DNA of 64,000 nucleotides. Origin: Oscillospiraceae bacterium (GTDB taxonomy: Bacteria; Bacillota; Clostridia; Oscillospirales; Ruminococcaceae). Both the position numbers and the translations under genes were made by a program. Every line of letters starts with the position of its first letter. Position 1 is the stretch's first letter. Of this stretch, positions 13,121 to 54,525 are shown in pieces. The stretch lies in contig JAJQFI010000008.1 in assembly GCA_021201235.1 (NCBI GenBank), positions 124,001 to 188,000 of the forward strand. The letters run 5' to 3'. Below the pieces are notes generated by a model that did not search any database, was not told the DNA's origin, and saw only the letters and a list, made by a program, of their open reading frames with translations.

Positions 13121-14836
13121 TTACTTCTTCTTTTTCTTGCCGGTGACGACTACTACGACGACAACGACAACGATTACTACGATAACAATGATGATTCCAA
13201 CTACAACACCGGTGGAGCTTGAGCTCGAAGATGAGCTGGAGCTGGAGTTAGCTGTGCTGTCTGTATCCTCAACAACCTCTTCCTCAGCGGGCTCAGCAGC
13301 TGCCTGAGCAGCCTCAACTGTAGCGGTGAGCTCTGTTACTCTGTCCTGAAGTTCCTGAGCGGCAGCTTCTGCCTTCGGATAATCCTCAGCAGCCTTGGTT
13401 GCACGGTTTGCAGCCTTCTTGGCATCGTCAAGAGCGTCTTCCTTCTCTTCGAGGGTAGACTCTTCACTGTTGATGATTTCCTCAGCGGCGTCAACTCTGT
13501 CTATGTATTCCTGCAAGGAAGCGACTACTTCTTCGTCCTCTGCATCGAGTTCAACGAGGAATGCTTCGATGTCAGCAACAGTAACGAGTTCGTAAGCATC
13601 GAAGGTGATGTCGAACGAAATGTTGGTGACGTTGGGGAGATAGTCGGTAGCAAACTGCTCAAGAGTCAAGCCTGTCTGCTCGAGAATGCCGGAGAGAAGG
13701 TCGATATCCTTGGAAGTACCGGAGGTATAGCCGCTCTCCTGCTTGATTGTGAATCTGGTTGCATCAATGGTGCCGTCGGAGATAACTACGTTGTCATAGC
13801 CGGTAGCAGTGATGGTGATGTCGGAATAGGTGAAGCTGTATCTTGCAGAATCACCGGTGTCGCCAACCTCGGCGCCATCAGGAAGCTGGAGATATCCACC
13901 GTCACCGACGGAAATAGCGAATGTCGGGTTGGATGTCCACTCAGCGGTGTTATCGGAAGAAAGATAACCTTCGAATGAATAAGCATCGTAATCCCAGGAA
14001 ATTTCGAGGGTGTCACCCAGAACGCCGGTGGTGTAGGTTCCGGCAGAGTTCCAAGACCAGTTTACATGATCCTGCATGTAGCCCTGAACATGGAACGGAA
14101 CAGCCTGAACTTCCGCATAGTTGCTAGCGGTGAGCTCGAGCGGCTGGTCAGCAGTCTCAACTCTGGTGTCTTCGAATTCGCCTGCGAGGGTCAAAGTCCA
14201 CCAAACATCGTAATCGGTGTCACGGCTGGTTCTCTGATATGCGTTATCAGCGTCGTCATTGCCGAGGATGTAGCAGGTGTAATCACGAGAACCGTCGGTG
14301 CAGGCGTTGATCTGCAAGGTCATTTCAATCTGGTTGTCCTTGACATCGGTGATCGGGAACTTAGCTTCTACAGCATAGCCGTTGTCAGTGATAACTGCAA
14401 CGAACTCAGCGCCCTTGTCAGCCCAGTCAGAGCCGGTATCATCGGTGGTGGAGCCGTCGTAACGGACACGAAGCTGATACTTGGAGTTGTTGTCCATCCA
14501 GAAGAACTCAACAGAGTCCTGCTCGTAAGTGTGAGCTGAGCCCTGGTCAAGAGAGTCGTCATAGACCTCAAACCAGACGTATACCCACTCAGCGTCGTTA
14601 ATGATGTATGCGCGTCCTATCGGTTCGCTGAGAACTTCGCTTCCGCCGTTGCTGGAGCCCTTCTGTACAAATTCAAGAGCAGTAGCGGCGTCATAAGCCT
14701 CGTCCTTGGTACCGTCAACAGTGGCGGTTCCCTCAACAGACTCGTTTACGATGTCTGCTGTAGCGGCGAATGAGATAGCTGTCATAGCCATGGTCAAAGC
14801 CAGGACTACGCAGATAATACCAATTAGCCTCTTCAT
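13121..14836 (-). CDS. Secreted membrane-anchored protein with CBM9-like (DOMON-type) N-terminal domain and poly-Val TM anchor
   Basis: MKRLIGIICVVLALTMAMTAISFAA signal peptide; EWVYVWFEVYDDSL...DSVEFFWMDNN; coiled coil; S(10)TGVVVGIIIVIVVIVVVVVVVVVTGKKKKK. Confidence 0.75.
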   Translation of the reverse strand: MKRLIGIICVVLALTMAMTAISFAATADIVNESVEGTATVDGTKDEAYDAATALEFVQKGSSNGGSEVLSEPIGRAYIINDAEWVYVWFEVYDDSLDQGSAHTYEQDSVEFFWMDNNSKYQLRVRYDGSTTDDTGSDWADKGAEFVAVITDNGYAVEAKFPITDVKDNQIEMTLQINACTDGSRDYTCYILGNDDADNAYQRTSRDTDYDVWWTLTLAGEFEDTRVETADQPLELTASNYAEVQAVPFHVQGYMQDHVNWSWNSAGTYTTGVLGDTLEISWDYDAYSFEGYLSSDNTAEWTSNPTFAISVGDGGYLQLPDGAEVGDTGDSARYSFTYSDITITATGYDNVVISDGTIDATRFTIKQESGYTSGTSKDIDLLSGILEQTGLTLEQFATDYLPNVTNISFDITFDAYELVTVADIEAFLVELDAEDEEVVASLQEYIDRVDAAEEIINSEESTLEEKEDALDDAKKAANRATKAAEDYPKAEAAAQELQDRVTELTATVEAAQAAAEPAEEEVVEDTDSTANSSSSSSSSSSSTGVVVGIIIVIVVIVVVVVVVVVTGKKKKK

Positions 14837-14909
14837 TATTATAATACCTCCTAAAAGTATTTGGCGAGATTTATTATAACACAAATCGTCCTCGGTTTCT
14901 ATTGACAAC

Positions 14910-14949
14910 TTGCACAAATAAAAAACCGTTTTTTGTGCATGTTGCACAA
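14910..14949. promoter_or_regulatory. Candidate operator: half-site TTGCACAAA plus palindrome TTGTGCA-TGT-TGCACAA
   Basis: Palindrome at 14933-14949, half-site at 14910-14918; same arrangement at 45225-45265. Confidence 0.6.
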
Positions 14950-27274: not shown

Positions 27275-27347
27275 TGTAGGGGCGGATATCATCCGCCCGG
27301 ACAAAGACATCAGCACAACAGCGGGCGGATAATATCCGCCCCCTACA
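27275..27347. repeat. Long imperfect inverted repeat
   Basis: TGTAGGGGCGGATATCATCCGCCCG ... CGGGCGGATAATATCCGCCCCCTACA. Confidence 0.85.
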
Positions 27348-30907: not shown

Positions 30908-31042
30908 GCGTTGTGCAACTTCCACAAAAAATCTTTCTTTCACCGTATCTCCAAGAATTTACGGTTGATTTTTTTGGGTTCTCTGCTATAATAAAATAGT
31001 AAGTTTGTAACCCTTTTGTAACTATTTCGGAGAGGAGGAGCC

Positions 31043-32779
31043 ATGTTTTTAGCACATATCCGAGCGGGGCTGTGGGCGATATTCAACTTTTTGCAGTTCG
31101 TCGGTCGCACGGTCGCAGATATTATAAAAAGAATATTTACCGCCGTTTTCGGATTCCTCGGAAGATTTCTGTCGAGACTGTTCAAAAGAATCGGCGGTTG
31201 GCTCTCGAAAAAATTCAAGCAACCGCTTTATGATATATGGTGCTTCGTCCTGACGCCGTTTGCACACGCATTCGGGCGGCTTGCTCACACAAAAATCCAA
31301 TTCCGCAAGGCGAAGAGAATCAGCAACGACCATGCCAAAAAGGTCGCGTTCAATGCAATCGGCACCTTCCTTAAGTGGCTCGGAAGAGCTCTCGTGTCGC
31401 TCTTCAACTATGCCGCACCGGTTATCTGCATAGTCTTCTTCGTTTCCCTCGTGAGCTATGCAAACTCCATCACCTACTCTGTTTCTGTCGAGTATAACGG
31501 CAGTGAGCTCGGAGTAATTTCGAGCGAAGCTGACTATAACGAGGCTCAGGCTCTCGTTCAGGACAAGATTACATACACCTCGTCCGACAGCGCTGTCATC
31601 GCAACCCCAACGTTTACTATAAAGGTCGCGAGCGATGACGACGACACAATCGACGTTGACAGCCTTTCGGAGCTGATGCTCGAGTCGGCGGACGTAAACG
31701 TTGTTGACGCCTACGGATTCTATATAAATGACACCCTCGTCGGAGTTTATGACGAGGAAGAAATGCTCAAGGTCAAGACGGCTCTCGAGTCAAAACTCGC
31801 CGAGTATTACACCTCAAACGCCGTTTCGGTTGAATTTATCGACGACGTCGAGATTATCGAGGGGCGATACATCGAGGACAACCTCACACTTTCGGACATC
31901 GCCGTCGCATATATCAACGGAAGCGTCACCGTCGAGGCTTATTACATCGTCGAAAGCGGAGACTCGATTTCCTCGATAGCAAGCGCACTCGGCTACACGA
32001 CCGACGAGCTTCTTGAGGAGAACCCGTCGCTTTCTGACGGAGTCTATGCCGGCGACATCGTCACATACCACTATACCGAGCCGAACCTCTCGGTCGTCAC
32101 GACGCACTATGAGACCTATAATCAGGTTGTCGAGCGTGAGACGAGGTATACCTACAACAGCAAGATGGAGGAATACAACGAAATTCTCATCCAGTCCGGC
32201 TCGGACGGCTATGAGAACGTAACGGCACTCGTCACAGAAACGGACGGCGTCGAGACGGACAGAACAATCACCATGAGCTACACCATCATCGAGATGGTTC
32301 CGAGAATCTTCGAGGTCGGAACCGCCGAAAACACGACCATTGACGACACAAGCATCATCGACCTTCTGGGCACATTCTGCTGGCCCGTCGGAGGAACAGG
32401 AGGATATGTCAGCTCGACCTATGGCTGGCGTTCGTGGGACTCCTCGAGTCACTATGCGATAGACATTGCCGCGGATTACGGCACCGACATCTATGCCGCC
32501 TGCTCTGGAACGGTCACATTTGCGAGCACATACGGCGCATACGGAAAGCTCGTCATAATCGACTGTGGCTACGGCTACGAAGCCTACTATGGGCACATGT
32601 CGTCGATTGATGTGAGCGAGGGCGACGTTGTCGAGAAGGGCGACGTCATCGGACACGTCGGCATGACCGGCTCCGCCTCCGGCAACCACCTGCACTTTGA
32701 AATGCGCTATAATGACGACCGCTTCAACCCAATTTATGTCCTTGGCGGGTATAGTAATCATGAGATAAGGAATTGGTGA
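31043..32779 (+). CDS. M23 family metallopeptidase with LysM and G5-like regions
   Basis: TM near residue 125; LysM-like YYIVESGDSISSIASALGYTTDELLEENPSL; M23 HYAIDIAADYGTDIYAACSG...GYEAYYGHMSS...GNHLHFEMRYND. Confidence 0.92.
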   Translation: MFLAHIRAGLWAIFNFLQFVGRTVADIIKRIFTAVFGFLGRFLSRLFKRIGGWLSKKFKQPLYDIWCFVLTPFAHAFGRLAHTKIQFRKAKRISNDHAKKVAFNAIGTFLKWLGRALVSLFNYAAPVICIVFFVSLVSYANSITYSVSVEYNGSELGVISSEADYNEAQALVQDKITYTSSDSAVIATPTFTIKVASDDDDTIDVDSLSELMLESADVNVVDAYGFYINDTLVGVYDEEEMLKVKTALESKLAEYYTSNAVSVEFIDDVEIIEGRYIEDNLTLSDIAVAYINGSVTVEAYYIVESGDSISSIASALGYTTDELLEENPSLSDGVYAGDIVTYHYTEPNLSVVTTHYETYNQVVERETRYTYNSKMEEYNEILIQSGSDGYENVTALVTETDGVETDRTITMSYTIIEMVPRIFEVGTAENTTIDDTSIIDLLGTFCWPVGGTGGYVSSTYGWRSWDSSSHYAIDIAADYGTDIYAACSGTVTFASTYGAYGKLVIIDCGYGYEAYYGHMSSIDVSEGDVVEKGDVIGHVGMTGSASGNHLHFEMRYNDDRFNPIYVLGGYSNHEIRNW

Positions 32780-34408: not shown

Positions 34409-34473
34409 AATATTTGAGAAAAAGCTTGCAATCGTCACCCAATCGTGATATACTGCATACTATAAAGTAAAAG

Positions 34474-34731
34474 GCGTTGAGCGGAAAGAGTAGCCCTATT
34501 TGACCCGCAGAGAGAGGAGACGGCGGTGGAATGTCTCCGGGGAGGTTCGGCGAAGTGCGTCCGTGAGCTTAGAGGCTGAACTGACAGTAGGCTTCTGCGT
34601 TTTGCCGCGTTAAGGCTACTTGCCCTGTGGCAACCGCCACGTCGGCAACTGAGTTACAAATCGGAGTGGAACCGCGATTTTACACCGCCTCCCGTTTAGC
34701 GTTATGCTATTCGGCAGGCGGTTTTTGTTTT
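34474..34731 (+). promoter_or_regulatory. T-box leader, probable Cys specificity
   Basis: T-box sequence GAGTGGAACCGCG, AGAGAG/GGTGGAA distal elements, closing pair AGTAGCC/GGCTACT, TGC in ggcttcTGCgttttg, terminator ACCGCCT...AGGCGGTTTTTGTTTT; upstream of cysE-cysS. Confidence 0.9.
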
Positions 34732-43344: not shown

Positions 43345-44985
43345 TTACTTTCTCTTGGAAGCTACGACTGCGAAGCCTGCGATTGCCATCGGAACGAGTG
43401 CGAGAACTGCGCCGGTAGTCGGGTTGGTCTCGGTTACTTCCTCAGCATCGGTGTCGTCAACGTCGAGCTCGTCATCCTCGGTCTCGGTGTTGGTGTCCTC
43501 AGCGGGCTCATCAACATCAACGGTTTCGGTTACGACAGTTCCGACAGGAACGAGAACCTTGACACTGGTAATGGTGTAGGAAGCAGAAGAGTTGGTGAGA
43601 AGGCTATAGGAAGAAGCTCCTGCGATACCAGCATCCTCGAGAGCGGCATAAACGGTTGCACCGTCATAGGAAATGGTGGTACCATCATCAGAAGTATAAG
43701 CAACCAAGCCGTCCTCATCCTCAGTAGTAGTACCTACTGTTGCGAGGAATACGTTAGTAGAGTTAGCAGAGATAGCAATCTTATCCCAAATCTCGCCGGA
43801 AACATAGGAAACTATGGTCTCGGTATCTCTTGTAATCCGGAGGATTGCTCCCTCAGTGTTAAGAGCCGCCGCAAAGGTGGAATCACCCAAAGCAGCCGAA
43901 GCCCAGTTGTTGGAAGCGAGGTTGATATCATAAGAGAATGCCTCGTAGTAATCAACGCCGTCGATATTTACAACAGTAGCCTCAGTCTCTTCGCCGCCGA
44001 CATACTCCTTGCAAACAGTGCAGTAACCGTCAGAATTTGCTGTATGCGGAACGCAAATGAAATGACCATCAACAATAAGCGCATGATACTCTTCATTTAC
44101 ATAAACAAAACGCATAGAAGAAGTGGTAGAGCTTTCAGCAGGAGTTACGTCAATAGTAAGGGAAGTCAGCTCAACACTATTGCCGCTAACAAACCAAACC
44201 TGAACTTCTGCGTACACATCAGAACCAACTACAAAGGTGTAAGTTGGACTAATTGTGCTTCCATCACTAGATTCAAAGCTACTACTCATACTGCCCCATC
44301 CGTCAGAACCATTTGCCCCAATGGTGCCATTGAAGTAACCGTCAGACTTAAGTGTAGCGGTAATAGTAAGAGTATCGCCCTCTGCATACGAACTAGTCAA
44401 ATAGCTTGAATAATCAGTAATTACAAAGTTCTCAGCGGCAGTGTAAGTGTAGATTGCAGTGCTACTTGACGAAGACGATGTATCCTCAGTAGTAACCGTG
44501 AATGAGCTGACAGTCCAAGTACGAGTAACTGCGTCGGATCCATAGCAATTGTTCTTAATAAGGAATGAAACTGTATCGGTCGATGACAAAGTGGAAGTGT
44601 CAACACCATTGTCAGCAAAATTGAATGTGGTGCTACCATACTTAACATCACCAACAGCGGTTCCGTTTACATAAACGGAAATTGCAAGATAGGTGTAATC
44701 AGAAAAACTGTCGAAATCAAACGACATCTCAGTAATAGTCGTTGCATCTATGCTCGACGGCAAATCATAAGCTATTGCGCCGCCGCTGTAGTTACCTGTC
44801 AAAGTGACAGTCAAAGCACCATCTGCGGAAACAGACACATCACTGTATCCCCAGTTTTGAATGCTGGTATTCTGAGTTACATCAGCAAAGGTATAGGTCG
44901 TAGTCGTAGTATCCGCTACAACAAACACACAAAGTGAGCTTATCGTGAGGACGAGAGCCGTCGCAACAGCTAAAATTTTCTTCAT
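43345..44985 (-). CDS. Secreted cell-surface protein with NPTTG sorting-type C-terminus
   Basis: MKKILAVATALVLTISSLCVFVVA signal; beta-rich modules; TNPTTGAVLALVPMAIAGFAVVASKRK. Confidence 0.75.
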   Translation of the reverse strand: MKKILAVATALVLTISSLCVFVVADTTTTTYTFADVTQNTSIQNWGYSDVSVSADGALTVTLTGNYSGGAIAYDLPSSIDATTITEMSFDFDSFSDYTYLAISVYVNGTAVGDVKYGSTTFNFADNGVDTSTLSSTDTVSFLIKNNCYGSDAVTRTWTVSSFTVTTEDTSSSSSSTAIYTYTAAENFVITDYSSYLTSSYAEGDTLTITATLKSDGYFNGTIGANGSDGWGSMSSSFESSDGSTISPTYTFVVGSDVYAEVQVWFVSGNSVELTSLTIDVTPAESSTTSSMRFVYVNEEYHALIVDGHFICVPHTANSDGYCTVCKEYVGGEETEATVVNIDGVDYYEAFSYDINLASNNWASAALGDSTFAAALNTEGAILRITRDTETIVSYVSGEIWDKIAISANSTNVFLATVGTTTEDEDGLVAYTSDDGTTISYDGATVYAALEDAGIAGASSYSLLTNSSASYTITSVKVLVPVGTVVTETVDVDEPAEDTNTETEDDELDVDDTDAEEVTETNPTTGAVLALVPMAIAGFAVVASKRK

Positions 44986-45224
44986 GTTTTTTTCCTCCAA
45001 ATATCGATATTATTGGGCGCACCAAGCCTAATCGGCGGCACCCGACGGGTCATCCACTCCCGAAGGGTCCAATTCCGAGCATTCTTCGGCATCATCCCAT
45101 TTTGCCGCTCTCGTCGCAGAAAGGCTCCGATACCATCCCACGAAACCATAAAAAACGACTTAAGCTGTACATACATAGTATAACACATTCTCGAGTCAAT
45201 GTCCAATAAAAATTCATCGGAATA

Positions 45225-45265
45225 TTGCACAAAATTATTATTGTGTTTTTGTGCAGGGTGCACAA
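45225..45265. promoter_or_regulatory. Candidate operator: half-site TTGCACAAA plus palindrome TTGTGCA-GGG-TGCACAA
   Basis: Same layout as 14910-14949; upstream of the surface protein gene on minus strand. Confidence 0.6.
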
Positions 45266-52652: not shown

Positions 52653-54314
52653 TCAGTTAGCTACAACGGTGATAGCGGGAGCATCGCCGGTAGTGTCGAG
52701 GGTTACATGGTAAGAACCGGGATCAACAACGATATTGTTGTCTCCGCCCTCAGTTCCTACAGAACCTTCGGTGAGGTGAGTGTAGCCGATACCGGAAGCA
52801 TCGTAATCGCCTGCATCCCAAGCGCCGTACATAACAACTCTGAATCCGGACTCGCCGGTAACGGTGATGTCATATTCCCAGATACCAACGTAAGGATCGT
52901 CGGACTCAACCTGGTTCTCGGTGAGGACATATTCGCCGTTCTCGCCGCCTGTGCAGCTCCAGCTTACGTCCATGTCACCAACGATAACCCAGCCGGTGGT
53001 AGAAGCACTCGAAAGAATGCTCTCAATACCTGCGGTGTAGGTGTCGAGGATTGCCTGAAGGTCGGAATCAGCAGGCTCGGTAGTGCCGAGAGCCTGAATG
53101 GAAGCACCGACAGCCTTGGAGGTATCCCACCAAGCGTTAGGATACTGACCCTGAGGAGTTGCATATTCGCTCTGAGCAGCGAGAGCAGCAAGAGCGATAT
53201 TCTCCTGAACGGCTTCACTTGCCTGAACATTTACGTTAGAGGGACCCCAAGCGAGGGTGTCGAATCTTTCCTGCTGGCACTCTTCGCCGGCAAGGTAAGC
53301 AGCTACTGACTGGCAGTAAGCAGCCTTGGTAGCATCAGTCTGAGGCTTTACACCAAGAAGCTTGTTACCTGAGTAAGAACCGAGGTGATAGGTTTCGCCG
53401 TCAACGGTGAAGCTCCAGAGGTCGGTGCAACCGAGGTTGTCGCCCAAAGCTTCGGAAGCGGTGGTGTAGTCCCAAGTACCGGTAACAACTACTGCGGCAT
53501 CACTTGAGAAGGAAGCGGCAGAAGAAGAGTTTACGAATACTGAGCTGTTGACGAGTTCAGCCATTCCCTTAGCGGCAATTATACCTGCTTCGGAATTGAA
53601 GGTGTCGGTGTAGCCGGTGAAGGTTCCGTCGTCATCGGTTGACCAGTCTGATACGCAACCGGTTGCGAAGAAGTAGGATGCTGAATACCAACCGGAGTCG
53701 GTGAGCTCGAAAGCGATGGTCTTACCTGCGGCAGAAACAGCCTCGATAAGAGCGGTCTGATCTTCGAGAACGGACTCATCGGTGATAACGCTCTTGTCAT
53801 AGTATACGAAGTAACCGTTATCAGAGGTGAGCGGGAAAGCATAGATAGTGCCACTTACGGTTGCGGCGGCTACAGAGCCTGCGTCGTTCTCGGAAGTGAT
53901 GGTGTCAGCGAGAGAGCTTGAAACAGCGGTAAGAGCGCCTGCCTGAGTAAGTCTTGCGAGCTGATCCTGAGCGAAGAAGAAGATGTCTGCGCCGGCGGTA
54001 ACGTCGGTGATCATGTTGGTAGCGGCTTCGCCTTCACCAACTGCTTCAACGGTGAACTGAATGGAAGTGCCGTTAGCTTCGTTATAAGCCGCGAGCTGAG
54101 AAGTTGTCAGATCAACTGCCGCCTCGGGGCACCAAACGGTGATGGAGATCGAGCTGGTATCGACATCGGAAGTGTCGGTGTTTGCAGTACTGTCGCTGTC
54201 GCTGTTATTGTTGCTACTTGAATCGTTGGTTGAGCTGTCGCCGCAAGCAACGAGGGTAAGAAGCATCATGACAGAAAGAAGTACAGTGAGAAGTCTGCGC
54301 CAATTTGTTTTCAT
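52653..54314 (-). CDS. Extracellular sugar-binding lipoprotein (MalE-like) with extra C-terminal beta domain
   Basis: Lipobox TLVACGD; ITVWCPEAAVDLTTSQLAAYNEANG; C-terminal about 120 aa module ending SYHVTLDTTGDAPAITVVAN. Confidence 0.88.
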   Translation of the reverse strand: MKTNWRRLLTVLLSVMMLLTLVACGDSSTNDSSSNNNSDSDSTANTDTSDVDTSSISITVWCPEAAVDLTTSQLAAYNEANGTSIQFTVEAVGEGEAATNMITDVTAGADIFFFAQDQLARLTQAGALTAVSSSLADTITSENDAGSVAAATVSGTIYAFPLTSDNGYFVYYDKSVITDESVLEDQTALIEAVSAAGKTIAFELTDSGWYSASYFFATGCVSDWSTDDDGTFTGYTDTFNSEAGIIAAKGMAELVNSSVFVNSSSAASFSSDAAVVVTGTWDYTTASEALGDNLGCTDLWSFTVDGETYHLGSYSGNKLLGVKPQTDATKAAYCQSVAAYLAGEECQQERFDTLAWGPSNVNVQASEAVQENIALAALAAQSEYATPQGQYPNAWWDTSKAVGASIQALGTTEPADSDLQAILDTYTAGIESILSSASTTGWVIVGDMDVSWSCTGGENGEYVLTENQVESDDPYVGIWEYDITVTGESGFRVVMYGAWDAGDYDASGIGYTHLTEGSVGTEGGDNNIVVDPGSYHVTLDTTGDAPAITVVAN

Positions 54315-54525
54315 GGTAGTTTCCTCCTTGGAAAGAGTATTTTGATTTTACGCCCCACAGTCGCAAGTGATGTGCAAATTTTAAACGGGGCACTTATGTA
54401 TTTTGCACAAACCTATTTTATACCTTTTGTACGAAAATGTCAACACAAAAAGTGAAATTTTATTGAGAATTTTTACAAATCCCACGCGTCTATCAACGCC
54501 GACCGGCTTGGGAAGCGGGTTTGCG

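Follow-up and report, generated by a model that had tools for sequence, protein, structure and literature searches.

The two sites designated A and B in the DNA analysed here (the window, a 64,000-nucleotide stretch corresponding to G000:C28:124001-188000) appear to be operators of an upstream-acting activator, inferred to be a protein of the PucR/CdaR type, a reading to which we assign a probability of roughly 0.74. The operator, its positions, its conservation and its target genes are observed, as are the distribution of the candidate regulator and its linkage to msmK; binding by this protein, the sign of regulation and the ligand are inferred. The operator is composed of three parts, wherein a 17-bp palindrome is followed 14 to 15 bp downstream by a TTTG(TGCA) half-site and then by an extended -10 element without a good -35. 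The distance from the end of the palindrome to the -10 is termed d. At site A, the following features are present.

14933-14949, minus strand: site A palindrome TTGTGCA-N3-TGCACAA, TTGTGCATGTTGCACAA, 17 bp, kept in orthologues L023, L024, L027, L140 and others
14910-14918, minus strand: third half-site of site A, TTGCACAAA (TTTGTGCAA on the minus strand), with TTTG at offset 14 from the palindrome
14873-14884, minus strand: extended -10 of site A, TGTGTTATAAT / TTGTGTTATAAT, d = 54 bp
13121-14836, minus strand: gene for a secreted CBM9-domain protein of 571 aa (Pfam PF06452, E 3.7e-14), the target of site A

The initial annotation of this DNA described a perfect 17-bp palindrome plus a half-site at 14910-14949, and both the letters and the positions are borne out, placing the two elements 74-113 bp 5′ of the ATG at 14836. 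It also described an extended -10 without a clear -35. Indeed, the extended -10 is present, and TAGAAA, the hexamer lying 17 bp further upstream, makes a poor -35. Among named relatives, those nearest to the CBM9 protein come from genomes of uncultured Ruminococcus and Oscillospiraceae.

Taken alone, a perfect 7-3-7 palindrome is nothing unusual, as nine with any arm occur in the window, and it is the recurrence of one arm sequence that is rare. Exact copies of TTGTGCA-N3-TGCACAA number two in the window and four in the 2.06-Mb genome, versus 0.00012 and 0.004, respectively, expected from a dinucleotide model. Allowing one mismatch yields 11 genome sites, 10 of which are intergenic, and allowing two yields 21, whereas the reversed-pattern control yields none. 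Exact copies are also present in most of 30 same-genus relatives, with up to eight per genome. Thus, the genome-wide motif scan that had been suggested as a check reveals non-random placement upstream of promoters, which is kept in orthologous and unrelated genes throughout the genus. It is scarcely credible that no regulatory protein is involved and that the palindromes merely represent chance repeats, hairpins or terminators. The abundance of perfect 7-3-7 palindromes is compatible with this explanation, and one copy, in G037, does resemble a terminator hairpin, but unrelated genes share the same arms at fixed distances from the promoter, only a spacer of 3 is enriched, and the half-site is kept at offset 15.

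The second exact palindrome in the window forms site B, and two imperfect palindromes lie elsewhere in the window.

45249-45265, minus strand: site B palindrome, TTGTGCAGGGTGCACAA / TTGTGCACCCTGCACAA, 17 bp, exact arms
45225-45234, minus strand: third half-site of site B, TTTTGTGCAA, with TTTG at offset 15
45177-45182, minus strand: -10 of site B, TATACT with TG before it, d = 66
43345-44985, minus strand: gene for a secreted protein without a Pfam match, the target of site B; an alpha-amylase gene and a sugar-ABC/GH53 cluster lie upstream of it
30911-30927, plus strand: palindrome with one mismatch, 5′ of a LysM-G5-M23 peptidase gene (31043-32779), d = 59
54394-54410, minus strand: palindrome with two mismatches, 5′ of the SBP gene 52653-54314

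The palindrome at 30911-30927 lacks TTTG at offset 14-15, and its membership in the operator family is doubtful; the palindrome at 54394-54410 is possibly a weak member of the set. The initial annotation had found the two-part arrangement only once more, at 45225-45265. This twin is real, but it is not the only one, since the palindrome and half-site also occur 5′ of an EF-G-like gene (G000 C28:71260) and, with a degenerate palindrome, at the msmK gene of the same genome (C32:63506), where TTTGG is located at offset 15 and the -10 at 56. As a separate observation, another 7-3-7 palindrome, with the arm ATCCGCC, occurs twice in the window, at 27281 and 27324, 43 bp apart.

We measured d over 83 distinct site contexts. 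Within the genus, the values fall mostly at 45, 53-56, 65-66, 76 or 87 bp, which are roughly helical-turn steps. The promoter of the EF-G-like gene (11 copies listed in the genus) uses 45 bp, the murA side of a divergent promoter uses 53 bp, and the CBM9 protein, its tandem paralogue and one SBP lipoprotein share 54 bp. Other SBP lipoproteins are found at 55-56 bp, the FGGY kinase and the site B gene at 65-66 bp (66 in 10/10 copies of the site B promoter listed), and two other promoters at 87 bp. Orthologues of the FGGY kinase gene are distributed among 54, 65, 66 and 76 bp, with one at 68. The half-site offset is 14 in site A and 15 in both site B and the EF-G promoter. As the half-site is kept at offset 14-15 in unrelated promoters, palindrome and half-site constitute one operator, and it is this whole operator whose distance to the -10 varies.

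A period scan of d gives R = 0.79 near 10.9 bp; under a uniform null, P is about 1e-4 or less. When only one value per distance class is used, the phase signal loses significance (P = 0.19), which indicates that much of it reflects a preference for about 54-56 bp. This preference is certain, whereas strict helical phasing is likely but has fewer independent promoters behind it. Among unrelated promoters outside the genus, d is less regular, and distances of 42, 58-61 and 69-71 bp are also used. The near-fixed, turn-spaced distances to the -10, along with the missing -35, argue for activation rather than repression at most sites, and to that extent support the activator dependence that had been proposed for site A. 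Two arrangements were encountered in the course of these comparisons. A single palindrome serves two divergent promoters at L050:5001 and in the orthologues L066, L067 and L074, with the murA-like gene at d = 53 and the FGGY kinase at d = 54-76. At G419:C16:68133 and 68591 (L207), several near-identical copies show the palindrome with repeated CTTTCGTTCCCCAAA units after it, and the whole looks like a mobile or repeated element.

To include promoters chosen without regard to the motif, we collected 79 non-redundant regions upstream of msmK, the shared sugar-ABC ATPase gene, from across the order. The palindrome is present with at most two mismatches in 19/79 regions, whereas permuted half-sites give a mean of 0.06 and a maximum of 1. 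With at most three mismatches, it is present in 37/79, versus a mean of 0.7 for permuted half-sites. Enrichment is observed only at spacer 3, and other spacers yield little. Moreover, the -10 lies at 54-56 in 31/39 of the msmK sites, and TTTG lies at offset 15 in 27/33. In other families of the order, the site is located 5′ of msmK in G055, G046 and G338 (d = 55) and G369 (d = 45), 5′ of a PPDK gene (d = 55), and 5′ of the EF-G-like gene of G244 (d = 56). The candidate new regulon that was put forward from site A is therefore supported by placement throughout the genus and, in the case of msmK, throughout the order.

The targets encode CBM9-domain surface proteins, extracellular solute-binding lipoproteins (PF13416), an FGGY kinase closest to xylulokinase, an EF-G paralogue (L046:2792-4816) that scores under the canonical EF-G cut-off, and the secreted site B protein, whose gene lies by the alpha-amylase, sugar-ABC and GH53 cluster in the window.

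The initial annotation named no regulator; the reader proposed here is encoded outside the window.

G000:C1:184822: PucR/CdaR-type protein, with GGDEF_2 and HTH_30 domains and a weak Diacid_rec match

Its C-terminal HTH_30 domain (PF13556, E 1e-19) and its GGDEF-like middle domain (PF17853, E 4e-12, above the cut-off) are well matched, and the N-terminal sugar-diacid recognition domain of the CdaR subgroup has a weak match that falls short of the cut-off (PF05651, E 5e-4, 20.1 bits versus 23.6). The HTH segment is 94% conserved, the highest value of any part, versus 45-68% in much of the sensor part. An HTH_30 protein, mostly single-copy, is encoded in 64/67 genomes tested, RpiR-less ones included; the match is missing in two site-positive genomes, G178 (90% complete) and G292 (94%). 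Because HTH_30 is nearly universal, its presence alone is weak evidence. In about two dozen of 82 loci, pucR is the gene immediately 3′ of msmK, and the adjacent loci L300, L283, L286 and L296 carry a palindrome with at most two mismatches upstream. No good site was found in the pucR neighbourhood of genomes wherein this gene lies beside ftsEX. The PucR-family members studied, among them PutR/PrcR and AdeR of B. subtilis, which are likewise HTH_30 proteins, are mostly activators, and the inverted repeats bound by PutR and AdeR measure 17 bp and 24 bp, respectively (PMC7652997). Judging from linkage, distribution and geometry, and in the absence of binding data, a PucR/CdaR-type protein likely reads the operator.

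Other regulators were weighed as readers. LacI/CcpA proteins were rejected because PF00356 has no matches in G000 or the multi-site species searched, and NarL/LuxR proteins, which include those with ComA-like three-element sites, because the genus holds only marginal PF00196 matches. Rex, HexR, GntR and MarR were considered on motif geometry only. Another broadly conserved regulator, either from an unscreened family (e.g. MarR, TetR, AraC, GntR or Xre) or a CRP-like protein, is an unlikely reader, yet one for which some room is left, as only five families were screened and the near-universality of HTH_30 makes its presence alone weak evidence. Against any such protein, the adjacency of msmK and pucR is specific. 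One CRP-like orthologue is indeed present in each of seven multi-site species tested, but its gene adjoins a TauABC-like operon without the site, and G036 carries an exact site without an HTH_Crp_2 match. The geometry is also wrong, as CRP operators are even palindromes (TGTGA-N6-TCACA), whereas the operator here is TTGTGCA-N3-TGCACAA, with only spacer 3 enriched at msmK. On these grounds the CRP-like protein was rejected.

Less probable still is that the operator is read by the sole RpiR-family (HTH_6 plus SIS) protein of the genus, a sugar-phosphate sensor. Exactly one RpiR protein occurs in each of 31 genus genomes, in an orphan gene neighbourhood, and RccR binds TGTAGT-N3-ACTACA, a site with the same geometry as the operator (PMC5489143). 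Despite this good geometry, RpiR fails as the reader because it is found in only 14/27 site-positive genomes and is missing from 13/27, including G055 and G369, whose msmK genes have exact or near-exact, correctly spaced sites. The RpiR-SIS regulator gene itself (L157:856-1734) is a universal single-copy orphan in the genus, located between DUF3006-like and HI0933-like oxidoreductase genes.

A PucR/CdaR-type activator thus remains the preferred reader, and its mode of action can be outlined by inference from the layout of the promoters. A dimer would bind the 17-bp palindrome, centred at about -75 in site A and about -87 in site B, while a further subunit or dimer would touch the TTTG(TGCA) half-site 14-15 bp nearer the promoter. 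This complex may then recruit RNA polymerase to the extended -10 that lacks a good -35. From promoter to promoter, the operator as a whole is displaced in steps of roughly a helical turn, with palindrome to -10 distances of 45, 54, 55, 65 and 66 bp. The signal sensed is predicted to reflect carbon or energy status, upon which sugar-capture and sugar-import genes would be turned on.

Parts of this arrangement resemble known systems. In E. coli CRP class I promoters, activator sites are likewise found upstream at turn-spaced distances from the -10, but these are TGTGA-N6-TCACA elements rather than odd 7-3-7 palindromes. The PutR site, TTGTGG-N5-CCACAA, shares the TTGTG-N7-CACAA geometry of the operator here, and the AdeR site is centred near -74.5. 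PutR/PrcR and AdeR exert local control over proline or alanine catabolism, whereas the present system has many unlinked sugar-acquisition targets, an additional third half-site and a proposed regulator that hardly varies within an order. In Bacteroides thetaiotaomicron, the activator BT4338 governs carbohydrate-use genes along with an alternative EF-G, fusA2 (PMC6989115). The pairing of sugar genes with an EF-G paralogue is similar, but the parallel is only functional, since BT4338 belongs to another phylum and the regulator proposed here is of the PucR/CdaR type with a different operator. CcpA, of the LacI family, is the standard global regulator of sugar genes in Bacillota; however, the operator here is not a cre site, multi-site relatives also have no LacI-family protein, and CcpA cannot act in G000 because this genome lacks LacI-family proteins. 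The msmK gene of Caldicellulosiruptor bescii is under its own control as well, but only a low-scoring XylR site, and no PucR operator, is reported there (PMC8579813).

A search of part of the open literature, which extended to PucR/CdaR proteins in Ruminococcaceae and to catabolite control in R. bromii, found no description of the operator or its regulator. Systems made up of an activator and an operator are known as a kind, but a global PucR/CdaR sugar regulon with a tripartite, spacing-constrained operator would be new, as PucR-type proteins have so far been described as local catabolic regulators. In short, a tripartite operator precedes sugar-capture and sugar-import promoters order-wide and is probably read by a nearly universal, uncharacterised PucR/CdaR-family activator, for which binding and ligand are inferences. 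The broader proposition is that, in Oscillospirales-type gut bacteria, of which some are without any LacI-family protein, one such activator governs sugar acquisition as a master regulator and couples it to an alternative EF-G in functional parallel to BT4338; this is tentative, and we judge it slightly below even odds. Little is known of carbon control in these gut bacteria, which are abundant and degrade fibre. Now that the operator is defined, its targets are listed and a single candidate regulator is named, the question becomes directly testable.

One set of sites is at odds with plain activation. The sole exact palindrome of many genus members lies about 40 nt 5′ of a sugar-ABC operon's first gene and more than 100 bp downstream of the likely promoter, a position that is not expected for an activator acting from upstream. 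These leaders (L032-L041, e.g. L036:1390-1560) contain an invariant AGCAAATA/TATTTGCT stem, followed by the palindrome shortly ahead of the start codon. Because this stem is invariant and its inner pairs covary, wherein five pairs exhibit two-sided changes, the leader may be a structured RNA, possibly a new one. Here the palindrome could work either as a block or as a hairpin in the RNA. Rfam identified no known RNA at the single sugar-ABC leader scanned (L113) or at the C3:898 site. A leader of another kind is present in the window at 34468-34695, where a T-box, probably cysteine-responsive, is located 5′ of an acyltransferase-like gene and cysS.
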